DNA from: an uncultured Candidatus Actinomarina sp.
GTDB lineage: Bacteria; Actinomycetota; Acidimicrobiia; Actinomarinales; Actinomarinaceae
Direction: 5' to 3'
DNA: 64,000 bases
NCBI GenBank assembly: GCA_902593795.1
Contig: CACJJR010000002.1
Coordinates: 1 to 64,000, forward strand
The translations under genes and the position numbers were made by a program. This document shows positions 42,148 to 61,632 of this stretch, piece after piece (position 1 is the first letter of the stretch; each line of letters opens with the position of its first letter). Below the pieces are notes generated by a model that was not told the DNA's origin, searched no databases, and saw only the letters and a program-made list of their open reading frames with translations.

Positions 42148-42189
42148 CTGATTACGATTATTTAAATTAAAATTAAATAATAGTTTATT

Positions 42190-42194
42190 GGAGG
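42190..42194 (+). promoter_or_regulatory. Ribosome binding site GGAGG that fixes the fadD start
   Basis: GGAGG ends 5 bases before the TTG at 42200. It is one of the few strong Shine-Dalgarno sites in the window and rules out the in-frame TTG at 42188, which would start within it. Confidence 0.75.
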
Positions 42195-42199
42195 AAATT

Positions 42200-44125
42200 T
42201 TGTCAAAATTACATGAATATTTGAGTTCGCAAGAAAATTTAATTACAGCCTCAGTTGAAGGAAAAACATTATTAGATTTTATAGATAGAAATGCAGATGA
42301 ATATCCGGATTACCCAGCATTAAACACACCAGCTAACAGTGAGTATTCTGCATGGGACTCAATTTCTTGGTCGGAATATAGAGATGTATCAAAAAATTTT
42401 GCAGCAGGTCTAATGTCATTAGGATTGGGTCCTGGGGATACTGCATTTATCATGTCTAATAATACGAAAGAGCACAATATTGCAGACTTAGGAATAGTCT
42501 ACTGTGGAGCTACTCCATCTACTTTATATAAACAATTAAAATCTTCTCAAATTGAATATGTAGCAAACCTTATGGAAGCAAAAGTTGCAATCGTAGGTGA
42601 TTTGGAATTATTCGCTGAGGTAAATGCTGCTAAAGCAGACTGTCCGAACCTTCAAGCTATAGTTTTAGTAAATGGTTATGAAGAAAACAAAGATTTAGAT
42701 TATGTTCATAGCTATCACAACCTAATTGAAAAAGGTAAAGAAATTAATTCAGATGATGGTTCAAAGCTAAATGCAGCTATTGAGACAGTCACTCCTGAAT
42801 CATTAGCGTGTTTAATATTTACATCAGGAACAACTGGTAAACCAAAAGGCGTAATGATTACACATAATAATGTTTTATGGACTATTGAAAGCTTGTTTGG
42901 CCAAATGATTCCTGCAAGTAATTTTCCAAGAATTGTTTCATATTTACCGATGGCTCATATTGCTGCGAGAGCTGGAGACCATTACCAAGCTATATACAGA
43001 GTAGGTCAAATATTTCCAGTACCAGTATTAGAGGATATGAGAGACGCACTACCTAGCATTAAGCCTTCAGTATTTTTAGCTGTTCCAAGAGTTTGGGAAA
43101 GATTCAAGGGAGGATTGCAAGCAAGAATTGAAGAAAATCCAAAAAAAGACTTAATTGATAAAGCAATAAAAAATGGTTTAGAAAAAGTTGATTATGAACA
43201 AAGGGGAGAAAAAGTTCCTCTGGGTGTAAAGATTAAAGATGCAGTATTTGCAAAATTAGTTTTCTCAAAGTTCAAAGAAGGACTTGGAATAATGGATACA
43301 GAATATTTTGTTACTGCTGCAGCACCAATGAATCAAGATGTACACAGATGGTTTCATGCTATCGGTATTGATATTACAGAAATATATGGAATGACTGAAG
43401 ATACAGGTCCAGCAACAATAGGTGTTCCTGGAAATGCTGCCGAAGCTTTTGAAAAAAAATTGAAAGTCGACGGTCTTAATATTCCAAGTGTTCTTAATCC
43501 TATTGGTAAAGTTGGAATACCAATTCCTGGTACAGAAGTCAAAGTATTAGAAGATGGCGAATTGTGTATTAAAGGTAAGCATGTAGCTCAGGGATACTAC
43601 AAATCGGAGGAGCAAACAAAAGAGACATTTGATACAGATGGTTGGTTACATACCGGAGATCTTGCACAGATTGATGATGAGGGCTTTGTTAAAATTATTG
43701 GACGTAAAAAAGAGATTCTAATTACATCTGCTGGAAAAAATATTGCACCAGTTGAGATTGAAGATCTTGTTAAGCCACATCCTTTAATTGGACAAGTGTG
43801 CGTTGTTGGTGATGGTAAGAAATTCTTATCAGCACTTATAGTTCTTGATGGAGATGGTGGTGCCGAGACATGGGCAGCTGAAAATGATATTGAGTATTCT
43901 ATAAAAGATATGGCTAAAAATGAAAAAGTCATTCAAGCAATTCAACAACAAGTAGACAAGGCAAATTCTCAAGTTGCTAATGTACAAGGTATTAAGAAAT
44001 TTGTTCTTTTAGAAAATGAATGGACTGACTCAAGTGGTGAGTTGACTCCAACATTAAAACTAAAAAGAAATGTTATTGCAGAGATGTATAATGATGAAAT
44101 TGAATCTATGTATGAGGATGTCTAA
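42200..44125 (+). CDS. fadD: Long-chain acyl-CoA synthetase (AMP-forming)
   Basis: 641-residue ANL-superfamily enzyme that activates a carboxylic acid to its CoA ester. The AMP-binding P-loop is IFTSGTTGKPKGV near residue 215, ITEIYGMTE is the adenine motif, GWLHTGDLA carries the ribose-binding Asp, and GRKKEILITSAGKNIAP leads into the C-terminal domain. The bubblegum/long-chain type domain order is suggested by length. It is followed at 2 bases by the SDR and then the acyl-CoA dehydrogenase, a fatty-acid or hydroxy-acid degradation operon. Confidence 0.93.
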   Translation: MSKLHEYLSSQENLITASVEGKTLLDFIDRNADEYPDYPALNTPANSEYSAWDSISWSEYRDVSKNFAAGLMSLGLGPGDTAFIMSNNTKEHNIADLGIVYCGATPSTLYKQLKSSQIEYVANLMEAKVAIVGDLELFAEVNAAKADCPNLQAIVLVNGYEENKDLDYVHSYHNLIEKGKEINSDDGSKLNAAIETVTPESLACLIFTSGTTGKPKGVMITHNNVLWTIESLFGQMIPASNFPRIVSYLPMAHIAARAGDHYQAIYRVGQIFPVPVLEDMRDALPSIKPSVFLAVPRVWERFKGGLQARIEENPKKDLIDKAIKNGLEKVDYEQRGEKVPLGVKIKDAVFAKLVFSKFKEGLGIMDTEYFVTAAAPMNQDVHRWFHAIGIDITEIYGMTEDTGPATIGVPGNAAEAFEKKLKVDGLNIPSVLNPIGKVGIPIPGTEVKVLEDGELCIKGKHVAQGYYKSEEQTKETFDTDGWLHTGDLAQIDDEGFVKIIGRKKEILITSAGKNIAPVEIEDLVKPHPLIGQVCVVGDGKKFLSALIVLDGDGGAETWAAENDIEYSIKDMAKNEKVIQAIQQQVDKANSQVANVQGIKKFVLLENEWTDSSGELTPTLKLKRNVIAEMYNDEIESMYEDV

Positions 44126-45036: not shown

Positions 45037-46254
45037 TTGGTTAATTCAGTAGCAGACATAAGTAATCCAGAACTCTTAGTACTTGAAAAATTAGATGAAC
45101 TTGTATCTTTTAGAGAAGAAAACCAAGATATTAGAGAATTTTGGGGTAAACAATTTGATTTAGGCTTAGCTTGGATACAATTTCCTGAAGGAGCGGGTGG
45201 ATTAGGTCTTAATCCAAAATATCAACTTTTAATAACTGAGAGACTAAGAAATGAAGGGATATCTCAGCAAAATAGAATAGCAAACATACTTGGAATTGGT
45301 ATGGGTGCTCCGACAATAGTTGAATATGGCACACCTGAACAAATTCAAACATACCTTAAACCAATGTTCACTACCGAAGAAATTTGGTGTCAACTATTTT
45401 CAGAACCCGGTTCAGGTTCTGATTTAGCAAGCTTATCAACAAAAGCCATAGATGATGGAGATGGTTATATTGTAAACGGACAAAAAGTTTGGACTACACT
45501 TGGACATTTAGCTAAGTGGGGTCTAATCGTAACTCGAACTGACCCTAGTGTTCCAAAGCACAGGGGATTAACATTTTTTATTGTAGATATGGAATCGGAA
45601 GGTGTAGACGTTAGGCCTTTACGACAAATTACTGGTGAGGCTGAGTTTAATGAAGTTTATTTTACTGATGTAAAGATTCCAAAAGAAAACATTCTTGGCT
45701 CGCTAGGAGAAGGATGGAGAGTTTCACTTGCGATATTGATGAATGAAAGAGTTGCAATTGGTGGCAATGTTCGCGAAAGAGGGAGTGGCGCTCCTGGACA
45801 TCTTGTTCAACTGTGGAAAGATAATGAACTAAATGATCCTGTTTCGAGAGATAAATTGATAAAACTATGGATAGAACAAGAAGCAGTAAGATTAACAAAT
45901 GTTAGAGCATTTGAAAACAGAGAAAAAGGAACTCCTGGTCCAGAAGGCTCTACAAGTAAGCTATATGAAGCTGAAATTAACAAAGCTTCCTATGAGTTTG
46001 GAATGGAAATGCTTGGTAACGATGGATTACTTTTTCCTAGAGGATATGCACTTACACAACCAGAATTAAATTTTGAAAATGAAACTTTCGGTTTTACTGA
46101 TACTCAAAGTCTTTTCTTAAGATCTAGAGCAAACTCTATTGAAGGTGGAACCTCTGAAATAATGAGAAATATCATTGCAGAGAGGGTTTTAGGATTACCT
46201 AGCGAACCTAAACTTGACAAAGATAAAGCATGGAAAGATATTCCAAGATCTTAA
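45037..46254 (+). CDS. Acyl-CoA dehydrogenase (FadE type)
   Basis: 405-residue flavoenzyme introducing a 2,3 double bond into acyl-CoA. WCQLFSEPGSGSDLA is the FAD/substrate motif, GQKVWTTLGHLAKWG follows, and SIEGGTSEIMRNIIAERVLGLP is the C-terminal signature, with Glu in the usual catalytic region. The start is a TTG 3 bases behind the SDR stop. Electrons would pass to ETF, not encoded here. The stop interlocks with that of the thiamine pyrophosphokinase-like gene (TTAA). Confidence 0.92.
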   Translation: MVNSVADISNPELLVLEKLDELVSFREENQDIREFWGKQFDLGLAWIQFPEGAGGLGLNPKYQLLITERLRNEGISQQNRIANILGIGMGAPTIVEYGTPEQIQTYLKPMFTTEEIWCQLFSEPGSGSDLASLSTKAIDDGDGYIVNGQKVWTTLGHLAKWGLIVTRTDPSVPKHRGLTFFIVDMESEGVDVRPLRQITGEAEFNEVYFTDVKIPKENILGSLGEGWRVSLAILMNERVAIGGNVRERGSGAPGHLVQLWKDNELNDPVSRDKLIKLWIEQEAVRLTNVRAFENREKGTPGPEGSTSKLYEAEINKASYEFGMEMLGNDGLLFPRGYALTQPELNFENETFGFTDTQSLFLRSRANSIEGGTSEIMRNIIAERVLGLPSEPKLDKDKAWKDIPRS

Positions 46255-46937: not shown

Positions 46938-47564
46938 ATGAATGAAGAATTTAAATTTAATATTGGCGATGAAGCGGTTAAAACGATAATTGATTTACGT
47001 GATCAGGAGCCTGGAGAAAAAGAATATGCTCTTTTCCTTCAAATTGATGGTGTGCATGGTAATCAATTTACATACGACTTAAGTTTTCTAGATATCAATC
47101 AAGCAAGATCTGATGACAAAAGAGTAGATTTTGGTGAATTACCAGTCATTATTGCTTCAAAAGATGTTGAAAAGTTTGATGGAGCAAGTCTAGATATGTC
47201 TGAAGACCCAGATGCGCCAGGACTTACAATGGACAATCCCAATACCCCTAGTCCTGCAATGATTGGTAATCCTGCTGATCTTCCTGAATTGAAAGGTGAA
47301 TTGGCAGAAAAAGTACAAGCTGTTTTAGAAACTCAGATAAATCCTGCTATTGCATCACACGGTGGTGCTGCCACACTTATTGGTGTAGAGGGTAATGATA
47401 TTTACTTAAGACTTGGTGGTGGTTGCCAGGGATGTGGCATGGCACAAGTTACATTAACTCAGGGTATTGAAGCTTCTTTGCGTGAAGCTGTTCCAGAAAT
47501 AGGTAATATTATTGATGCAACGGACCATGCTGCTGGTGATAATCCATATTTTGCATCTCACTAA
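46938..47564 (+). CDS. NfuA-like Fe-S carrier protein
   Basis: 208 residues in two domains. The N-terminal (1-95) resembles an A-type (HesB) carrier fold but lacks the cysteines. The C-terminal Nfu domain has INPAIASHGGAA and the cluster-binding CxxC in GGGCQGCGMAQVTLTQG (near residue 160). This architecture delivers 4Fe-4S clusters to client enzymes. A potential client is the dehydratase-like protein encoded 1 kb away on the other strand. Its stop interlocks with the convergent oxidoreductase gene as CTAA. Confidence 0.9.
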   Translation: MNEEFKFNIGDEAVKTIIDLRDQEPGEKEYALFLQIDGVHGNQFTYDLSFLDINQARSDDKRVDFGELPVIIASKDVEKFDGASLDMSEDPDAPGLTMDNPNTPSPAMIGNPADLPELKGELAEKVQAVLETQINPAIASHGGAATLIGVEGNDIYLRLGGGCQGCGMAQVTLTQGIEASLREAVPEIGNIIDATDHAAGDNPYFASH

Positions 47565-48532
47565 ATACTAATAACAGTTTTACCTATATTTTTTCTAGTT
47601 AAAAAATTCTCTAGTGCAACAGATGTTTCTTCTAATTTATAACTATTTTTTGGAACAATTTTTAATTTATGATTTTCGATAAACGAAATAAGTTCTTGAA
47701 AATCTTCAGCTGTTTCATTCGGGGCAGTATTTGTCCATCGTCCCCACCAAACTCCTACGATTGAAACCCCCTTAACTAAAGTCAGGTTAAGAGATATTTT
47801 AGGAATGGAACCATTAGCAAATCCAATTACAAGTAGTCTTCCATTAAAAGCTGTAGCTCTTAAAGCTTGTTCTGTAGTTTCACCTCCAACTGGATCAATA
47901 ACAATATCAACGCCCTTTCCACTGGTTAATTCTTTTACCGTTTCTTTTAGGTCAACCTGATCATATCTAACTATTTCATCTGCTCCTAAACTTTTTACAT
48001 AATCAGCTTTTTCTTTTGACCCAACTGCACAGATAGAATTTAACCCCATAACTTTAGCTAATTGAATTGTTGACGTTCCGATCCCTCCAGATGCCCCAAG
48101 TACTAAAAGAGTTTCTCCACTCTTAGCATTAGCTCTTCTTTTCAGAGCATAGTACGAAGTTCCATAATTAATGGGAAGGCTTGCACCAGCTAGTGAATCA
48201 AAGGTATTTTTTACTGGTATAACTAAGTTTTCATTTACAGCTACATATTCAGCAAAGCCACCAACAGGAGGTATCCCAATTACTTTTGTACCAATAGGAA
48301 TATTTACTTTTTTTCCTACTTCTTCTACAAAACCACATACTTCATTACCAGGCGTGAAAGGTGGATCCATGACAATTTGATACTTACCTTGAACTAAAAG
48401 AGCATCTGGGAAATTTACTCCTGCTGCTTCAACTTTAATTAAGACTTCATTTTCAGCAATTTTGGGTTTTTCTATCTCTTGAATTTCTAAAAGATTTGGC
48501 TCACCTAACTTTGTACATACAACAGCTTTCAT
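47561..48532 (-). CDS. NADPH:quinone oxidoreductase-like zinc-less MDR enzyme
   Basis: 323 residues of the medium-chain dehydrogenase family, quinone-reductase branch. GVNFPDALLVQGKYQ, PFTPGNEVCGFVEEVG, then the nucleotide-binding LGASGGIGTSTIQLAK near residue 147. No zinc-ligand pattern is visible. The ATG at 48532 is chosen over an in-frame TTG two codons upstream that overlaps the previous stop. As last gene of the reverse acyl-CoA block it could act as an enoyl-CoA or quinone reductase. Confidence 0.88.
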   Translation of the reverse strand: MKAVVCTKLGEPNLLEIQEIEKPKIAENEVLIKVEAAGVNFPDALLVQGKYQIVMDPPFTPGNEVCGFVEEVGKKVNIPIGTKVIGIPPVGGFAEYVAVNENLVIPVKNTFDSLAGASLPINYGTSYYALKRRANAKSGETLLVLGASGGIGTSTIQLAKVMGLNSICAVGSKEKADYVKSLGADEIVRYDQVDLKETVKELTSGKGVDIVIDPVGGETTEQALRATAFNGRLLVIGFANGSIPKISLNLTLVKGVSIVGVWWGRWTNTAPNETAEDFQELISFIENHKLKIVPKNSYKLEETSVALENFLTRKNIGKTVISI

Positions 48533-48534
48533 AT

Positions 48535-49986
48535 TCAATCTCTATCCTTAATGCCTGAAAGTTTTTTAGCAAAATCTTTCTTTTCTTCAATGTCAACTTT
48601 TCTTCTGATCTGAACTCTTTGTGCTTGTGGGGACCCTGCTCCGTGAAGTGACTCAGTAAGATACGCAACTGCATTTCTGCCAAGTGTCATATTTTCAATA
48701 AGTCTTAATATTTTAACCCTATCTTCTGAATTTATATCTTTTTTACCTTTTAGGTATTTCTTTAAGTCTTCAGACATACTTCCTTCATTAAAATCAATAC
48801 CCGAAGGCATAGATCCAACAAGCCCTCCTGCTAAATCTTGTGCAAGCCTTCCTATTTCATAAGTTTCTTTTGTAACGTGTTGTTTACAAACATTTGCTAA
48901 TAAATCATCATTAATAAAGTTTCCAGACTTTGTTTTTGTGCCTTGAAGGGATGAAGCAATACCTGTTGCGTAAATAGTTTCATTAAGTTTATTCATTTCT
49001 ACTAATTTATCTTTTATGTGAGATGCTTCTTCTACACCATTATATTCAGCAATTGTTGCAGCAGCTCCTATCAACACATCACCTACGCCTGATTTGCATA
49101 CATAAGATCTTCTATGATATGTTGTGAATCTTTCCACAAGCATTGATGAAAATTCAAACTCCCCATTCATAAATATATATTTATTTGGTATGAAAACATT
49201 ATCAAAAATAACCATTGCTTCTTGGCCTGCAAAATATTTATTTCCAACATCATACTCTCCAGGTTCCATACTCCTTGTATCACAAGATTGTCTTCCGTAT
49301 ATGTATGTAATTCCATCTGCGTCAACAGGAATAGCACCTACAATTGCATAATCTTTATCTTTATCTGATAATCTTAAAGTTGGCATTACAACCATCCAAT
49401 GAGAGTTTATACATCCAGTCTGATGTGCTTTAGCACCCTTTACATACACACCTTCTTCAGTTCTTTTAATAATTCTTAAATAAACATCTTCATCTTCTTG
49501 CTCATGAGGTAATTTTGATCTGTCTCCTTTGACATCTGTCATTGCTCCGCCTATTACAAGATTGTCTTTATGCATTTCTGTAAGAAAGTTAGTAAAATTT
49601 TTGTGATAATTAGTATTGTGTTTTTCATCAACTTCGTAAGTTATAGAATGCAAAGCATTAAATGCATCCATACCTACACATCTTTGAAAACAGGTTCCAG
49701 TTAATTGTCCAAGCTTTCTTTGCATTTTATTTTGCATAAATAAATCTTCACTATTTTCAGCTATATGTAAAAATCTATTTATTTTTTCACCAGTGTATGG
49801 TGATGTTACTGAAGCCAATTCCGGCTCTCTTACAGCAAGTTCGTAAGTTTCGGCCATCGCCTCTATACTTGGCTTTATGATGGGGTTTTCTAGAGGTTCT
49901 TTTACTAACTCACCCATAAGATAAATTTTTAAATTTCTATTTTTAATTGAACTTAAATAACTGTCTCTATCGGTGATTTTATTCAT
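48535..49986 (-). CDS. 4-hydroxybutyryl-CoA dehydratase-like flavoprotein (4-hydroxyphenylacetate 3-hydroxylase family)
   Basis: 483 residues from the ATG at 49986. The family includes HpaB monooxygenases and the radical FAD/4Fe-4S 4-hydroxybutyryl-CoA dehydratase/vinylacetyl-CoA isomerase. Cluster ligands of the latter are present: Cys99 and Cys103 (CFQRC), at exactly the positions of the Clostridium aminobutyricum enzyme, and His291 plus Cys297 in YHRRSYVCK (the published ligands are His292 and Cys299). ESLHGAGSPQAQR near residue 447 matches the active-site Glu region. HpaB enzymes are not expected to carry such cysteines. Neighbours are thiolase, MaoC and kinase genes. Product: crotonyl-CoA, if true. 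Confidence 0.8.
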   Translation of the reverse strand: MNKITDRDSYLSSIKNRNLKIYLMGELVKEPLENPIIKPSIEAMAETYELAVREPELASVTSPYTGEKINRFLHIAENSEDLFMQNKMQRKLGQLTGTCFQRCVGMDAFNALHSITYEVDEKHNTNYHKNFTNFLTEMHKDNLVIGGAMTDVKGDRSKLPHEQEDEDVYLRIIKRTEEGVYVKGAKAHQTGCINSHWMVVMPTLRLSDKDKDYAIVGAIPVDADGITYIYGRQSCDTRSMEPGEYDVGNKYFAGQEAMVIFDNVFIPNKYIFMNGEFEFSSMLVERFTTYHRRSYVCKSGVGDVLIGAAATIAEYNGVEEASHIKDKLVEMNKLNETIYATGIASSLQGTKTKSGNFINDDLLANVCKQHVTKETYEIGRLAQDLAGGLVGSMPSGIDFNEGSMSEDLKKYLKGKKDINSEDRVKILRLIENMTLGRNAVAYLTESLHGAGSPQAQRVQIRRKVDIEEKKDFAKKLSGIKDRD

Positions 49987-49991
49987 ATACA

Positions 49992-49997
49992 ATTATA
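49992..49997 (-). promoter_or_regulatory. Consensus -10 TATAAT for a leaderless dehydratase mRNA
   Basis: On the minus strand TATAAT lies 5 bases before the ATG at 49986. It falls in the 51-base gap after the thiolase gene, implying that the dehydratase and oxidoreductase genes have their own promoter. It also favours the ATG over the in-frame TTG at 49992, which falls inside the hexamer region. Confidence 0.5.
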
Positions 49998-50037
49998 CGT
50001 TTAGATTCTGATGCAGGTCTTTTAAATAATTGTTAAT

Positions 50038-51216
50038 TTATATAACTTCAAACAAGCCTGCTGCACCCATTCCACCGCCAACACACATTGTAACAACAAC
50101 ATATTTAGCACCTCTTCTTTTGCCTTCCATAAGTGCATGCATCGTCATTCTTGCACCAGTCATTCCATATGGGTGGCCTATAGATATTGATCCACCATTA
50201 ACATTATAAATTTCATTATCAATGCCTAGGTGATCTCTACAATACAAAGCCTGAACTGCAAATGCTTCATTTAATTCCCAAAGGCCTATGTCATCAATAC
50301 TTAAGTTGTACTTATCAAGTAATTTTGGAACTGCATATATAGGCCCAATTCCCATTTCTTCAGGAGCTAAACCTGCAACTGCCATTCCTCTGTAATAACC
50401 AAGGGGAGTGAGGCCTTTATTTTCTGCGACTTTTGATTCCATAACAACTACAGATGCAGATCCATCGGATAATTGAGAAGCATTTCCTGCTGTAATGAAC
50501 TTACCTTCTCCATAAACTGGAACTAAAGAGGTAAGACCTTCTAAGTTAGTTTCTGGTCTATTTCCCTCATCTTTTTCTAAAGTAACTTCTTGCTCAGAAA
50601 CTTCACCTGTTTCTTTATCTTTAACTAATTTTGAAGTTGTAGTTGATATGATTTCATCTTTATAGACATTTGCTTCTTGAGCTGCCGCAGTTCTTTGTTG
50701 ACTTTGTAAAGAATATTCATCTTGACTTTCTCTAGTTACATTATATTTTTCAGCAACTAGATCTGCAGTTTCAATCATGGGCATATAAGCATGTTGAGCA
50801 TGTGAAGTAACATTTGGATCGATTTCTACTCTAAACTCCGCAGTTTGTACAAGTGATATTGATTCTACACCACCTGCTACAACGATATCCATATTATCTG
50901 TAATGACTTGTTTAGATGCAGTAGCAATTGCCATCATCCCTGAAGAGCATTGCCTGTCTATTGTCATTCCAGGAACATTATCTGGTAATCCAGCTGCAAT
51001 TCCAGACAATCTACCTATATTGATAGCTTGAGAACCCTGCTGCTGTGCGCACCCCATAACAACATCTTCGACTTCTTTGGGATCTATTCCAGCTCTATCT
51101 ACAGCTTCTTTAATTGAATAAGAAGCTAGTGTTGGAGCGGCAGTTTTGTTGTAAGCGCCCCTATAAGCCTTGCCAATAGGTGTTCTTGCTGCTGATACAA
51201 TTACTGCTTCTCTCAT
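50038..51216 (-). CDS. Acetyl-CoA acyltransferase (thiolase)
   Basis: 392-residue thiolase cleaving 3-ketoacyl-CoA with CoA. Nucleophile Cys90 in [10 protein letters not shown], His348 in [16 protein letters not shown] and Cys378 in CVGGGMG form the active site. The degradative type is likely from context. A strong AGGAGAT precedes its ATG. It follows the MaoC gene by 15 bases in the reverse-strand operon led by the APH-family kinase. Confidence 0.95.
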
Positions 51217-51231
51217 AAATATCTCCTCTTC

Positions 51232-51693
51232 TTATTCGTTTACGACATATAAAGTTAAAGCTTCAACAACTGCTGCAGGCTTTTCTTTACCCTCAATTTC
51301 AACAGTTACTGTAAACTTAACTAACCATCTTCCATTTTTTTTGTAATTAACTTCTGATAGAACAAAACGACCTCTTATTTTACTGTTTACTGGAACAGCT
51401 TCCATAAACCTTACTTTATCTGCTCCATAATTAATTGCCATTTGTAGGCCATCAGGCATAAAGCCATTCTGTGCGGACATATATGACAAAAGGCTTAATG
51501 TTAAAAATCCATGAGCTATAGTTGTTCCCCAAGGTGTTGCTTTTGCCATTTCTGGATCAACATGTATAAATTGATGATCATCTGTTGCATCTGCAAATTG
51601 ATTAATCCTCTCTTGAGTTATTTCAATCCAATCAGTGACTCCAGTTTCTTGGCCTAAATAATTTTCAAATTCACTTGCTGGAATAACTTTCAC
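51232..51693 (-). CDS. MaoC-family enoyl-CoA hydratase/dehydratase
   Basis: 153-residue single hotdog protein. The hydratase-2 motif is DDHQFIHVDPE (catalytic Asp and His) followed by PWGTTIAHGFLTLSLL. It hydrates trans-2-enoyl-CoA, giving the 3R product in characterised members. The start is a GTG with AAGGAGAT ahead, overlapping the kinase gene by 4 bases. It could hydrate crotonyl-CoA formed by the neighbouring dehydratase-like protein. Confidence 0.9.
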   Translation of the reverse strand: MKVIPASEFENYLGQETGVTDWIEITQERINQFADATDDHQFIHVDPEMAKATPWGTTIAHGFLTLSLLSYMSAQNGFMPDGLQMAINYGADKVRFMEAVPVNSKIRGRFVLSEVNYKKNGRWLVKFTVTVEIEGKEKPAAVVEALTLYVVNE

Positions 51694-52706
51694 AATATCT
51701 CCTTAAGTAGATTTTTAGTTGAAGCTTTTTTTGCGAAGTTTAATGTACTTTCCCCAAATGCTTCAACATCTTTCTTATCAACATTACCATAATAACCCAA
51801 TGAATACCTAACAAATACACCCTCCATTATCATTGCATGTTTCCAAAATGAAAGTCTTACATAAAACTCGATTTCGTCAAGATTAAGCTCAGATTTGCTT
51901 TGATACATAGTTAAGATGTTTTCTCTACTTGGAAAACCGTCACTTAATGAAGGTGAGTAAATAAACGGAGTATTCTTTTCGTTTTTATCTGCCCAAGAAG
52001 CAATAACTGTACCTAAGTCTGCTAGTGGGTCTCCTAAAGTACAAAGTTCCCAATCAACAACTGCTGCTACAGAATTATTATTTATCCTTACATTATCTAA
52101 TCTATAATCACCATGAACAATGCTCACTTTTTGCTGAGATGGCATATTGTCAAAAAGTAAATTTGTAGCAACATCTAAATCACTTATATCTCTTACCTTC
52201 TGAGCATTAAATTGTTTACTCCATCTATTTAATTGCCTTTCAACGTAGTTTTCATGCTTTCCTAAATCGTTTAAACCTGACTTTTCTACATCAAAAAAAT
52301 GAAGCTCGGCAAGAGTTGATATAAATGATTCAGTAATCTTTTCTTTCTCTAAGTCAGAGTATTTTTCAGCAATAAGATTGTCAGCGATTGTTTCACCTTC
52401 AATATACTCCATAATGTAAAAGTCGTCATCACAAATCAACCTATCAACACATAAAAGAATAGGTTTTGGAACTTTCAAATTGTTTTTACTCAATTCAGTA
52501 ATGATTTTAAATTCTCTTTGCATATTATGAGCAGACTCAAGTTTATTTCCAAAAGGAGGTCTTCTTAAGACAAATACTTTTGAATCATCAAAAATTTTAT
52601 AAGTGATATTTGATCTGCCTACTTTAAATTGTTCATATTCAAATTCATAATTTAAATATGTATTTGAAGAGATATAATCTCTTATTTTTTCATCAAAAAA
52701 ATCCAT
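51690..52706 (-). CDS. APH-family kinase, LvaA/ACAD10-11 kinase-domain type
   Basis: 338 residues of the aminoglycoside-phosphotransferase fold. VFVLRRPPFG near residue 45, IMEYIEGETI, catalytic HGDYRLDN (198-205) and VVDWELCTLGDPLADLG (metal Asp218) are intact. This subfamily sits next to, or is fused with, ACAD11-type dehydrogenases. LvaA of Pseudomonas phosphorylates 4-hydroxyvaleryl-CoA. The gene is divergent from exactly such a dehydrogenase (52765). A role as 4-hydroxyacyl-CoA kinase is inference from family and context; antibiotic resistance is unlikely. A minus-strand TAAGAT at 52715-52720 lies 8 bases before the ATG. Confidence 0.85.
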   Translation of the reverse strand: MDFFDEKIRDYISSNTYLNYEFEYEQFKVGRSNITYKIFDDSKVFVLRRPPFGNKLESAHNMQREFKIITELSKNNLKVPKPILLCVDRLICDDDFYIMEYIEGETIADNLIAEKYSDLEKEKITESFISTLAELHFFDVEKSGLNDLGKHENYVERQLNRWSKQFNAQKVRDISDLDVATNLLFDNMPSQQKVSIVHGDYRLDNVRINNNSVAAVVDWELCTLGDPLADLGTVIASWADKNEKNTPFIYSPSLSDGFPSRENILTMYQSKSELNLDEIEFYVRLSFWKHAMIMEGVFVRYSLGYYGNVDKKDVEAFGESTLNFAKKASTKNLLKEIL

Positions 52707-52752
52707 TAACAAATATCTTATGAATTAATTCTCTTGGACTCAAGTTAATTGA

Positions 52753-52758
52753 TAGAAT
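52753..52758 (+). promoter_or_regulatory. Possible -10 hexamer TAGAAT for the ACAD11-like gene
   Basis: TAGAAT ends 6 bases before the ATG at 52765 with no Shine-Dalgarno sequence, fitting leaderless transcription. It lies within the 58-base divergent promoter region shared with the kinase gene. Confidence 0.4.
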
Positions 52759-52764
52759 AAAACA

Positions 52765-53970
52765 ATGGATTTTAATTATTCTGATAAATCTTTAGAGCTT
52801 CAGGAAAAGCTTCGAAAATTTTTTGATGAATATATTTTTCCTAATGAAGAAGCATATGAAAAAGCTATTGTTGATTCGGGAGATCCTCTTCATATTCCTG
52901 TCATATTAGATGAGTTAAAACAAAAAGCAAAAGAACAAAATTTATGGAATTTATTTTTACCTGATAGTGAATATGGTGCAGGTTTAACAAATGTTGAGTA
53001 TGCACCTTTAGCTGAAATTACAGGACAGACTTGGTGGGCTCCAGAAGTATTTAACTGTTCTGCACCCGATACTGGCAATATGGAAATTCTTGCAGACTTT
53101 GGAACACCTGAACAAAAAGAACAATGGTTGAGGCCATTACTTGATGGTGAAATTCGTTCTTGTTTTGCAATGACGGAACCTAATGTAGCCTCATCTGATG
53201 CAACTAATATTTCAAGCTCTATAGTTTCTGATGGTGAGAATTATGTTATTAATGGAAGAAAATGGTGGACTTCAAATGCAATAAATCCCCGGGCAAAAAT
53301 TTGCATTTTTATGGGTATAACTAATCCAGAAAACCCTCCCTATACAAGACAAAGTCAAGTACTCGTTCCAATGGATTCAGAAGGAATTACTATAGTACGG
53401 CCAATGCACGTTTACGGATATGATGATGGTTACACTGGTCACCCTGAACTTAAATTTGAAAATGTAATTGTTCCAAAAGCAAACATTATAGGAGGAGAAG
53501 GGATGGGTTTTAAAATTGCTCAGGCAAGATTGGGCCCTGGAAGAATACACCATTGCATGAGAACTATTGGAATGGCTGAAAGAGCTTTAGAGCTGATGAT
53601 TAAGAGAACTATGTCTAGAGAAACTTTTGGCACAAAAATTTCTGATCATGGGGTAGTTCAAGATTGGATAGCAAGGTCAAGAATAAAAATTGAAGAAGCA
53701 AGATTATTAACTTTAAAAACAGCCTGGCTAATTGATAATGTAGGAAAAGAACAAGCAAAAATTGAAATATCAGCAATAAAAGTTGGAGTCATTGAAGCTG
53801 CGTCATATGTAATAGATAAGGCTATACAAGCACATGGAGCAATGGGACTTTCACAAGACACACCACTTGCAAGAATGGCCGCAGGCGCAAGGACACTTAG
53901 AATTGCTGATGGTCCAGATGAAGTTCATCTTAGATCAATTGCAAGAAGAGAAATAAATAAGCATTCATGA
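52765..53970 (+). CDS. ACAD11/LvaC-like acyl-CoA dehydrogenase
   Basis: 401-residue acyl-CoA dehydrogenase fold. APEVFNCSAPDTGNMEIL (92-109), FAMTEPNVASSDATNI (134-149) and GRKWWTSNA are hallmarks of the ACAD10/11 branch. At the C terminus the usual (Y/E)EGT catalytic region reads RIADGPDEVH, so Asp382 takes the place of the common Glu base. Members act on 4-phosphorylated acyl-CoA, eliminating phosphate to give enoyl-CoA. The divergent kinase gene and the overlapping 3-hydroxyacyl-CoA dehydrogenase gene fit this pathway. Ordinary dehydrogenase activity remains possible. Confidence 0.88.
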   Translation: MDFNYSDKSLELQEKLRKFFDEYIFPNEEAYEKAIVDSGDPLHIPVILDELKQKAKEQNLWNLFLPDSEYGAGLTNVEYAPLAEITGQTWWAPEVFNCSAPDTGNMEILADFGTPEQKEQWLRPLLDGEIRSCFAMTEPNVASSDATNISSSIVSDGENYVINGRKWWTSNAINPRAKICIFMGITNPENPPYTRQSQVLVPMDSEGITIVRPMHVYGYDDGYTGHPELKFENVIVPKANIIGGEGMGFKIAQARLGPGRIHHCMRTIGMAERALELMIKRTMSRETFGTKISDHGVVQDWIARSRIKIEEARLLTLKTAWLIDNVGKEQAKIEISAIKVGVIEAASYVIDKAIQAHGAMGLSQDTPLARMAAGARTLRIADGPDEVHLRSIARREINKHS

Positions 53971-54827
53971 ATGAAAAAATAGCAGTTATAGGCGGTGGAC
54001 AAATGGGAAGCCAAATTGCTGCGTTAGCAGCTATGGCTGGATATGAAACTAGTCTCTATGATGAGAATGAAGAAAACTTAGAATATAGATATAAATTTGT
54101 TGAAGAAAATATAAAAAACTTAATAGATAAAAAAATATATTCAGAAGATAAATTAGATGCCTATAAAAAGAATTTAGAACTTAAATTTACACTTGAAGAA
54201 GTAATTCATGAAAAGTCATTTGTAATAGAAGCTGTTGTTGAGAAATTTGATGTAAAACTTGAAATTTTCAAGAAGATTTCAAGTTTGATGAATGATGAAG
54301 TTGTTATGGCTACTAACAGTTCATTCATTCAAGCTTCTGAATTGTCTATACACTGCAACCATCCTGAGAGATTTATAAATATGCACTTTTTCTATCCTCC
54401 TATAAGAATGGATTTGGTTGAAATTTCATACCCTGAGAATGTCTCAAAAGTTATTTTAGAACGAACTAAAAATGTGAGTAAAAATATGGGTAGGTCCGTT
54501 GTTGTACTAAAAAAAGAAACTCCTGGTTTTATTGTCAACAGAATGCTTGCTGCATTAGTTGATGAAGCATACGAGCTCTATGATGAGGGAATTGCAGATT
54601 TTGAAGATATAGATATTGCAATAAAAAAAGGCTTAAATCATCCACTGGGTCCATTTGAATTATCAGATTACTCAGGACTAGATATTCACTATTATGCAAA
54701 ATTAAAAAAGTTTAAAGAATCAGGAAGCTCAGAGGATAAACCTAAAAAGTTTTTGGAAGAAAAAGTATTAAATGGAGATCTGGGTGTGAAAACTGGAAAA
54801 GGTTTCTATGAATACAAGAAAGATTAG
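53967..54827 (+). CDS. 3-hydroxyacyl-CoA dehydrogenase
   Basis: 286 residues with an N-terminal NAD Rossmann domain (AVIGGGQMGSQIAALAA) and a C-terminal helical domain. The catalytic His is in NMHFFYPPIRMDLVE and the conserved Asn is in PGFIVNRMLAAL. It is a monofunctional FadB2/PaaH-like enzyme, probably acting on short-chain 3-hydroxyacyl-CoA such as 3-hydroxybutyryl-CoA. It overlaps the ACAD11-like gene by 4 bases. Residues FFYPP replace the usual FFNPP, a small departure near the active site. Confidence 0.92.
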   Translation: MNEKIAVIGGGQMGSQIAALAAMAGYETSLYDENEENLEYRYKFVEENIKNLIDKKIYSEDKLDAYKKNLELKFTLEEVIHEKSFVIEAVVEKFDVKLEIFKKISSLMNDEVVMATNSSFIQASELSIHCNHPERFINMHFFYPPIRMDLVEISYPENVSKVILERTKNVSKNMGRSVVVLKKETPGFIVNRMLAALVDEAYELYDEGIADFEDIDIAIKKGLNHPLGPFELSDYSGLDIHYYAKLKKFKESGSSEDKPKKFLEEKVLNGDLGVKTGKGFYEYKKD

Positions 54828-59290: not shown

Positions 59291-60373
59291 ATGGAAATGG
59301 AAAATAAAAATATCAAAGTTGCAATTTTAGGTGTTGGTAATTGTGCTAGTTCTTTTGTGCAAGGTGTTGAGTACTACAGCAATTCTGACAATGAAGATGG
59401 GCTAATATCTGATGTAATTGGCGGTTATAAAGTTTCTGATATAGAAATTGTTGCAGCTTATGATATTAACGAATCAAAAGTTGGTAAAGATTTAAGTGAA
59501 GCTATATTTGCTGAGCCTAATAATACATTGAAGTTTTCAGAAGTTCCAAGCACTGGGGTTATTGTGGAGCCGGGTGTTGTTAAAGATGGAGTTGGTAAAT
59601 TCGTAAAAGATATTATAAAAACATCACCTGATTCAAAGAATTTTGAAGATTCACTAAAAAAATCTGGAGCAGAAATTTTAATAAATTTACTACCAGTCGG
59701 TTCAGACGATGCGGTCAAGTTCTATGCTCAAGCTGCTATCAACTCTGATGTCGGATTTATAAACTGTATACCAGTATTTATCGCTCGAGACGATGAATGG
59801 TATCAAAAATTTAAAGATGCATCTGTTCCACTTATCGGAGACGATATTAAAAGTCAAGTAGGAGCAACTATTGTTCATAGAGCTTTAGCTCAATTGTTTT
59901 CAGACAGAGGAGTCAAGCTTGAGCATACTTACCAATTGAATGTTGGTGGAAATATGGACTTTTTAAATATGTTAGAGGAAGACAGACTAGAAACCAAAAG
60001 AACCAGCAAAACTTCTTCAGTTACATCTGTTGCAAATAAAGGCTCAGGAATTTCACCAGATAATGTAAGAATTGGTCCATCTGATTATGTAAAGTGGCTT
60101 GAGGATCGAAAGAAAGCATTTATTAGGCTTGAAGGCAAAGCTTTTGGGGGAGCTCCACTAAATATAGAAGTTCAACTAGAAGTTTGGGACTCTCCAAATA
60201 GTGCTGGTGTCACTATTGATGCTGTTAGGTATATGAAATATTTTAATGAAAAAAATGATTTAGATTCATTAGATCTTGTTTCTGCATGGTTAATGAAAGC
60301 ACCGTTTAAATCAGTAAAAGATGGTGACGTATTAACAACACTACATAAACTTACACACGTCGAAAGTGACTAG
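59291..60373 (+). CDS. ino1: myo-Inositol-3-phosphate synthase
   Basis: 360 residues of the actinobacterial/archaeal short-type enzyme that cyclises glucose 6-phosphate to inositol 3-phosphate with NAD. VAILGVGNCASSFVQGVEYY starts the Rossmann domain. LLPVGSDDAVKFYAQAAI, GDDIKSQVGATIVHRALAQL and LNVGGNMDFLNM cover NAD- and substrate-binding. In actinobacteria the product feeds phosphatidylinositol and mycothiol. The stop interlocks with the convergent aminotransferase gene in CTAG. Confidence 0.95.
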   Translation: MEMENKNIKVAILGVGNCASSFVQGVEYYSNSDNEDGLISDVIGGYKVSDIEIVAAYDINESKVGKDLSEAIFAEPNNTLKFSEVPSTGVIVEPGVVKDGVGKFVKDIIKTSPDSKNFEDSLKKSGAEILINLLPVGSDDAVKFYAQAAINSDVGFINCIPVFIARDDEWYQKFKDASVPLIGDDIKSQVGATIVHRALAQLFSDRGVKLEHTYQLNVGGNMDFLNMLEEDRLETKRTSKTSSVTSVANKGSGISPDNVRIGPSDYVKWLEDRKKAFIRLEGKAFGGAPLNIEVQLEVWDSPNSAGVTIDAVRYMKYFNEKNDLDSLDLVSAWLMKAPFKSVKDGDVLTTLHKLTHVESD

Positions 60374-61632
60374 TTTAAAGAGTTTTTAAATATTTCTAGT
60401 GCCTCTTCTACTTGGTTTATAGGTGTTGTTAATGGACCCATAAACCTAATAACGTTTCCATTTTCACCACAAGAAACAAGTAAAAGTCCATTATCTTTAC
60501 ATTTAGAAATGATTTGCATTGTTTTATCTTTGTCTGGAGAATTTAAATCTTTACCTTTTACAATTTCAACACCTATCATTGGCCCATAGCCTCTTACGTC
60601 ACCAATAAAATCATATTCCTTTAGCATATTGAGTAATTGACTATTCATTATTTCTGATTGTTTGCTAGCATTTTCTAAAATATTCTCATTATCAAAGGCT
60701 TCCAACACGCCTAGAGCTGCAGCACATGAAACAGGTGACGCACCAAAGGTGCTTCCAATACCTGCATCATGTATTGAATCCATAATTTCTGATTTTCCTA
60801 AAACTGCAGCTAGTGGAAACCCACCCGCTATTCCTTTGGCTAGGGTAACGATATCTGGTACAACATTAACAGTTTCTGCTCCAAACATATTTCCAGTACG
60901 TCCAAAGCCTGTTTGCACTTCGTCAAAAATTAATAAAATATTTTTCTCATCACATATTTCTCTTAAACTTTGAAGAAAATAACTCGAAGCAGGAATATAT
61001 CCACCTTCTCCGAGCTGCACTTCAACTATCATTGCTGCTGTATCATTTGGATCAAGTGTGGTATTAAATAATTCTTTTACACTTTCCAATGCTTGGTCAT
61101 CAGAGACATCTCGATAGGCATAAGGGTAAGAAGCATGTTTTACGAATTCTGGGAATGGCCCAAATCCTTCTTTGTATGGTTTATCTTTACCAGTCAGACC
61201 CATTGCAAGATATGTTCTACCGTGAAAACCTCCCTTAAATGAAAGTATTCCTTTTTTGTTAGTAAAGTATCTAGCTATTTTGACCGCATTTTCAACTGCT
61301 TCAGCACCACTATTCACCATAAAAGTTTTTGTATCAGAATTTATAGGGTATCTTTTATTTAATTCCTCAGAAAGCTTTACTGCATTTTCATGTGGTGCAA
61401 ATGCAAAGCATGAATGTGAAAAATCATCAAGTTGGACTTTAACCCTTTCAATTACTGTAGGATGCAAATGACCCGTGTTCAAAACAGCGTACCCACCAAC
61501 ATAATCCAAGAAACGTTTACCTTCAGAGTCCCAAATTTCTGCGTTTCTACCTTTAACAATATAATTTTCCAAAGAACTATACCACGCACTAGGAACGTTA
61601 GATGCTATTTTATCGTTTTCGATATAAACCAT
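60370..61632 (-). CDS. Class III aminotransferase, 4-aminobutyrate type
   Basis: 420-residue PLP enzyme. VNSGAEAVENAVKIAR, FKGGFHGRTYLAMGLTG, LLIFDEVQTGFGRTG and TLAKGIAGGFPLAA (PLP lysine) are the GabT-type motifs, followed by GSTFGASPVSCAAALGVL. It most likely converts 4-aminobutyrate and 2-oxoglutarate to succinic semialdehyde and glutamate; ornithine or acetylornithine activity is possible. Reduction of the semialdehyde would give 4-hydroxybutyrate, the precursor of the dehydratase-like enzyme's substrate 11 kb away (inference). Confidence 0.88.
   Translation of the reverse strand: MVYIENDKIASNVPSAWYSSLENYIVKGRNAEIWDSEGKRFLDYVGGYAVLNTGHLHPTVIERVKVQLDDFSHSCFAFAPHENAVKLSEELNKRYPINSDTKTFMVNSGAEAVENAVKIARYFTNKKGILSFKGGFHGRTYLAMGLTGKDKPYKEGFGPFPEFVKHASYPYAYRDVSDDQALESVKELFNTTLDPNDTAAMIVEVQLGEGGYIPASSYFLQSLREICDEKNILLIFDEVQTGFGRTGNMFGAETVNVVPDIVTLAKGIAGGFPLAAVLGKSEIMDSIHDAGIGSTFGASPVSCAAALGVLEAFDNENILENASKQSEIMNSQLLNMLKEYDFIGDVRGYGPMIGVEIVKGKDLNSPDKDKTMQIISKCKDNGLLLVSCGENGNVIRFMGPLTTPINQVEEALEIFKNSLN

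Follow-up and report, generated by a model that had tools for sequence, protein, structure and literature searches.

Described 4-hydroxybutyryl-CoA dehydratases (4HBDs) act on a C4 substrate, 4-hydroxybutyryl-CoA, and their genes are used as markers of archaeal carbon fixation through the 3-hydroxypropionate/4-hydroxybutyrate (3HP/4HB) cycle. Two structures are available for comparison, 1u8v, of the Clostridium aminobutyricum type, and 6vjr, which groups with the Nitrosopumilus 4HBD. A second chemistry, involving a kinase and an acyl-CoA dehydrogenase (ACAD), is represented by the lva operon of Pseudomonas putida, in which LvaA (kinase) and LvaC (ACAD) handle 4-hydroxyvalerate and feed β-oxidation, and by mammalian ACAD10/ACAD11; both systems are reported to act on 4-hydroxyacyl-CoAs of C5 and longer, C5-C10 in the case of ACAD10/11, which yield 2-enoyl-CoA unaided (PMC12440821, PMC11342911). 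Both chemistries are predicted in a single locus, positions 47561-54827 of the window, a stretch of 64,000 nucleotides from the uncultured Candidatus Actinomarina sp. contig CACJJR010000002.1. With a probability of roughly 0.6, this is a short-chain β-oxidation locus equipped with two means of processing acyl-CoAs that a 4-hydroxyl group blocks, comprising a kinase/ACAD11 core and an accessory 4HBD. The novelty lies in the arrangement, each enzyme family being already known; a literature search on 4HBD with Actinomarina, marine Actinobacteria, levulinic acid and kinase/ACAD, which left most subscription journals uncovered, returned no description of the combination.

The source genome comprises 1.07 Mb with 33% GC and is 89% complete, so that genome-wide gene absences are provisional; gene counts for the genome derive from family searches. 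Candidatus Actinomarina is one of the free-living marine heterotrophs with the smallest genomes, and the reading names a testable catabolic role for such an organism. The sequence discloses two divergent operons, kinase-MaoC-thiolase-4HBD-QOR on the minus strand and ACAD11-like-3HCDH on the plus strand, with all genes named in the first-pass annotation found at their coordinates except the acyl-CoA ligase, which exists but lies beyond the locus:

47561..48538, minus strand: PIG3-type NAD(P)H quinone oxidoreductase-like MDR protein (QOR; TIGR02824 243 bits, below cut-off), last in the minus operon
48535..49992, minus strand: predicted 4-hydroxybutyryl-CoA dehydratase / vinylacetyl-CoA Δ-isomerase (4HBD; structure matches, residues, tree)
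50038..51216, minus strand: thiolase (acetyl-CoA C-acyltransferase; TIGR01930 419 bits, above cut-off)
51232..51693, minus strand: MaoC-like enoyl-CoA hydratase (PF01575 95 bits)
51690..52712, minus strand: APH-fold kinase of the LvaA/ACAD11 kinase-domain type (PF01636; ACAD11 kinase domain 151 bits), first in the minus operon
52713..52764, no strand: divergent intergenic region between the kinase and ACAD11-like genes (sequence comparison, 38 genus loci)
52765..53970, plus strand: ACAD11/LvaC-type atypical acyl-CoA dehydrogenase, putative 4-phosphoacyl-CoA eliminase (8v3u 431 bits; residues)
53967..54827, plus strand: 3-hydroxyacyl-CoA dehydrogenase (3HCDH; PF02737/PF00725)
42188..44125, plus strand: AMP-forming acyl-CoA ligase (FadD11-like) of the neighbouring FadD-SDR-ACAD operon (profile matches)

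Several adjoining genes of both operons share 4-bp overlaps, including QOR/4HBD and ACAD11-like/3HCDH. The kinase and the ACAD11-like genes, earlier said to face each other, do so in the sense of a head-to-head, divergent pair and in no other, with 52 bp between their starts and an intergenic region of 52-60 bp in 38 of the 38 genus loci compared.

The comparison of the 4HBD with structures in the Protein Data Bank (PDB) gives 734 bits to 6vjr, the best structural match, and 556 bits to 1u8v, with which it shares 53% identity, against ~90 bits to HpaB. The window residues C101, C105, H293 and C299 align with the [4Fe-4S] ligands C99, C103, H292 and C299, and the catalytic T190, E257, Y296, K300 and E455, the roles of which are known from the C. 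aminobutyricum enzyme, are identical, i.e. nine of the nine residues checked are conserved. The Actinomarina protein thus has all Fe-S ligands and catalytic residues in common with 1u8v and 6vjr, and displays the HRRSYVCK loop, shorter by one residue, that 6vjr also has. Pfam and NCBIfam label it as HpaB, the NCBIfam scores falling far under the HpaB cut-offs, and no other protein of the genome matches PF03241. A tree of 71 proteins places the window 4HBD among aerobic bacterial and thaumarchaeal 4HBDs, nearest to those of the Nitrosopumilus type and of aerobic bacteria, and far from HpaB. Bit scores, tree position and conserved 4HBD residues rule out an HpaB monooxygenase, and the dehydratase proposed at first reading came through this check. 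The protein is assigned as a 4HBD, with the conversion of 4-hydroxybutyryl-CoA into crotonyl-CoA as its predicted reaction. Because the window copy groups with the aerobic bacterial and thaumarchaeal enzymes and not with the 4HBDs of other Acidimicrobiia in the same tree, its placement suggests that Actinomarina gained the gene by horizontal transfer. In addition, caution is advisable in using 4HBD as a marker, since it also occurs in heterotrophic surface-ocean bacteria and the aerobic bacterial and thaumarchaeal copies lie close together in one clade. Unlike 1u8v and 6vjr, the Actinomarina 4HBD is encoded in the β-oxidation operon of a heterotroph, beside the kinase/ACAD11 pair.

The ACAD11-like protein matches ACAD11 (8v3u) with 431 bits and the ACAD11-like protein 4hr3 with 406 bits, whereas ordinary ACADs do not exceed 140 bits; it is 52% identical to mouse ACAD11. 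It bears RLGPGRIHHCMR, i.e. R255-LGPGRIH-H263-C-M-R266, plus the catalytic Asp382; R255, H263-C-M-R266 and D382 are equivalent to R626, H634-C-M-R637 and Asp753 of mouse ACAD11 (the residue index in the PDB chain is the numbering of the paper minus one, the motif letters being the same), and the HCM aligns opposite gaps in the ordinary ACAD encoded at 45037-46254. Since the R...HCMR and Asp residues, which are reported to be specific to ACAD10/11/LvaC and required for phosphate elimination (PMC12440821), are conserved, the protein is read as LvaC/ACAD11-type. The kinase scores 168 bits against 9o56, an 'aminoglycoside phosphotransferase', and 151 bits, with 34% identity, against the ACAD11 kinase domain; it contains HGD(202)YRLDN(207) and DWEL, with D202 and N207 equivalent to the catalytic Asp220 and Asn225 of the ACAD11 kinase HGDxxxxN. 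The kinase putatively phosphorylates 4-hydroxyacyl-CoA and the ACAD11-like protein putatively eliminates the phosphate. The PDB matches settle the folds, the diagnostic residues of all three enzymes are intact, and the earlier claim that one cluster encodes both chemistries holds.

Like the lva operon, the Actinomarina locus comprises separate kinase and ACAD11-type genes, in lva-type adjacency although divergent, with the same diagnostic ACAD motif, and would likewise feed β-oxidation. On the other hand, the lva operon includes a dedicated acyl-CoA ligase, LvaE, and LvaB, whereas the Actinomarina operons have neither a ligase nor an unassigned small gene of the LvaB kind, and the downstream genes differ. 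To our knowledge, no 4HBD occurs in the lva operon. The mammalian ACAD10/ACAD11 have R626, HCMR and the catalytic Asp (ACAD) and HGDxxxxN (kinase) in common with the Actinomarina proteins, which are 52% and 34% identical to the ACAD and kinase parts of ACAD11, respectively, but form one fused protein, in contrast to the two divergent genes, without a HAD domain, of Actinomarina; the comparisons with ACAD10/11 and LvaA/LvaC are based on two studies (PMC12440821, PMC11342911).

In the proposed mechanism, (i) the kinase would phosphorylate the 4-hydroxyl group of 4-hydroxyacyl-CoAs, chiefly secondary alcohols of C5 and longer, which may derive from hydroxy fatty acids, γ-lactones or oxylipins; (ii) the ACAD11-type flavoprotein would eliminate the phosphate, generating 2-enoyl-CoA; (iii) the accessory 4HBD would form crotonyl-CoA by dehydrating the primary alcohol 4-hydroxybutyryl-CoA, for which omega-hydroxy acids and free 4-hydroxybutyrate are example sources; and (iv) the products of both routes would feed a common hydratase, 3-hydroxyacyl-CoA dehydrogenase and thiolase, with one of three general AMP-forming ligases supplying the CoA esters.

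The division into core and accessory parts emerges from the comparison of 42 genomes of this single genus. 4HBD occurs in 36 of them, in one as a 42-residue fragment and in another as a contig-edge piece, and the gene order is the same wherever the region is complete, so that the linkage, checked in close relatives, is kept across the genus. Five genomes (G014, G016, G037, G038 and G040), which occupy four different positions in a concatenated tree, display contiguous loci in which 4HBD alone is missing and all other genes are kept; ~24-143 bp separate QOR from thiolase, an interval with no detectable 4HBD remnant. Because these species genomes miss 4HBD only, the kinase/ACAD11 module persists without it, and the comparison identifies the kinase/ACAD11 route as the likely core and 4HBD as an accessory, apparently lost independently, which weakens the view of the dehydratase as an integral part of an island. 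These natural 4HBD-minus species also provide a comparison set. A 40-codon N-terminal 4HBD remnant lies between intact QOR and thiolase genes in G015 (L065:4007-4126); the kinase gene of this contig is interrupted and followed by unrelated genes, an apparent rearrangement, and given a possible misassembly the remnant is to be treated with caution. The sixth genome in which 4HBD is missing, G027 (63% complete), has neither gene and is uninformative.

The dispensability of 4HBD in several lineages that retain the kinase route, together with 2-enoyl-CoA being the end product of both routes, would also suit a redundant system acting on one substrate, in which the dehydratase, ATP-free but oxygen-sensitive, has a robust kinase route that costs ATP as its backup. 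This is improbable, as described 4HBDs act on 4-hydroxybutyryl-CoA, whereas ACAD10/11 and LvaA/LvaC are reported to act on 4-hydroxyacyl-CoAs of C5 and longer. The 4HBD could instead serve as a 3-enoyl-CoA (vinylacetyl-CoA) Δ-isomerase for β,γ-unsaturated ACAD11 products, an activity known in the family and for which 6vjr is named; the unaided formation of 2-enoyl-CoA by ACAD10/11 and the maintenance of the kinase/ACAD11 route in species without 4HBD make this role most improbable.

As a separate observation, in L052-L054 the QOR, 4HBD and thiolase are 79-89% identical to their window counterparts, compared with 92-96% for ACAD11, and the tree joins the 4HBD to a different lineage, apparently a sign of recombination of the QOR-4HBD-thiolase segment within the genus.

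The genomic context points to a general role in β-oxidation. Since the sole clear degradative (full-length) thiolase found in the genome, other PF00108 matches being partial and weak, and the sole full-length 3HCDH found are both located here, the locus is best read as the β-oxidation locus of the cell with added 4-hydroxyl handling, and not as the dedicated 4-hydroxy-acid catabolic island of the first-pass annotation. The genome further encodes four ACADs, three AMP-binding ligases, of which that at 42188-44125 is the nearest to the cluster, and two crotonases, both away from the cluster. The GABA-type aminotransferase noted earlier (60370-61632, ~11 kb away) scores best to 4-aminobutyrate transaminases, below every curated cut-off, and is part of a general ~20-kb syntenic block, while the only strong aldehyde dehydrogenase of the genome is not a clear succinic semialdehyde dehydrogenase; the GABA link is not supported. 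These points, and the loss of 4HBD in several lineages, render catabolism of GABA or 4-hydroxybutyrate alone, or half of the 3HP/4HB cycle, highly unlikely as the purpose of the locus, even with the aminotransferase gene nearby and the window 4HBD close to the Nitrosopumilus enzyme.

A scan for 4HBD covering 84,980 species with a single genome each, from which the best 80 loci were kept, 75 of them outside Actinomarina, and which gives a lower bound for the frequency of clustered loci, disclosed two Bacteroidota loci (L122 and L124) in which a single operon combines MaoC, an ACAD11 that has the HCMR motif, 4HBD and kinase, with gaps of 0-17 bp separating ACAD11, 4HBD and kinase; a close relative provides a third example (L190). 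By profile search of 112 non-Actinomarina loci, an ACAD11-type kinase occurs near 4HBD or ACAD11 only in L122 and L124. These marine Flavobacteriaceae operons follow the order SDR-SDR-SDR-MaoC-ECH-ACAD11-4HBD-kinase-ACAD-ACAD on a single strand. Compared with Actinomarina, they have ACAD11, 4HBD and kinase, contiguous here, and MaoC in common, but are distinguished by the single-strand layout, three SDRs, a crotonase (L124) and two further ACADs, and by the absence of thiolase and 3HCDH. Within the wider family of the Bacteroidota genome, 4HBD is found in 3 of 301 genomes, the copy of G364 standing alone. Because the Flavobacteriaceae 4HBD belongs to a different subclade of the tree from the window 4HBD, and identity to the window counterparts is no more than ~44% for ACAD11 and ~33% for the kinase, the comparison indicates that the two clusters were assembled independently. 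The combination is consequently not unique. A broader proposal, that marine Actinomycetota and marine Bacteroidota each evolved a two-tool module clearing 4-hydroxyl blocks in β-oxidation, with phosphorylation-elimination for secondary and radical dehydration for primary 4-hydroxyl groups, and that this reflects abundant 4-hydroxy and omega-hydroxy acids in seawater, a pool so far overlooked, is tentative.

Several observations weigh against the two-tool reading. Linkage inside the genus is weak evidence alone, the whole surrounding ~20 kb being syntenic. A survey of 345 Acidimicrobiia genomes found ACAD11-type genes to be common; leaving the genus aside, 20 genomes encode a clear 4HBD, and a further five matches are more divergent. 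ACAD11-type genes and 4HBD are not clustered together in these genomes, nor with an ACAD11-type kinase. Candidate linkages in G111 and G254 were rejected, 4HBD and ACAD11 being 8-13 kb apart with unrelated genes between them and no ACAD11-type kinase near. The division of substrates between secondary 4-hydroxyl groups and 4-hydroxybutyryl-CoA is an inference from family knowledge. The two operons contain no dedicated acyl-CoA ligase. Furthermore, hydratases of the MaoC type usually show (R)-specificity and dehydrogenases of the 3HCDH type (S)-specificity, so that the complete path to acetyl-CoA claimed earlier is not secured; in place of 3HCDH, the partner of MaoC could be the SDR of the neighbouring FadD-SDR-ACAD operon. 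Finally, 4-hydroxybutyryl-CoA assays are absent from the main text of both ACAD10/11 papers, and substrates may overlap (PMC12440821, PMC11342911). A streamlined genome might simply group its acyl-CoA genes, 4HBD and kinase/ACAD11 lying by the single thiolase because both make enoyl-CoA, with no joint substrate or regulon. The location here of the sole full thiolase and 3HCDH found, the gain and loss of 4HBD without the other genes and the lack of clustering in other Acidimicrobiia agree with such packing, which is nonetheless unlikely given the same three genes contiguous, and independently assembled, in an unrelated phylum.

The QOR gene is present in genomes without 4HBD. In the Alphaproteobacteria loci L167, L168 and L173, a QOR-like gene (33-35% identity) lies directly 3′ of 4HBD, a recurrence of the 4HBD-QOR pairing. 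Elsewhere in the window, 320-2583 comprises an aldehyde dehydrogenase gene followed, with a 4-bp overlap, by a shorter aldehyde-dehydrogenase-like gene (275 aa), the product of which is possibly a non-catalytic partner. In some Actinomarina species, the thiamine pyrophosphokinase and NfuA-like genes are separated by an additional ATP-grasp-like gene (L195:3452-4633), which is absent from the window.

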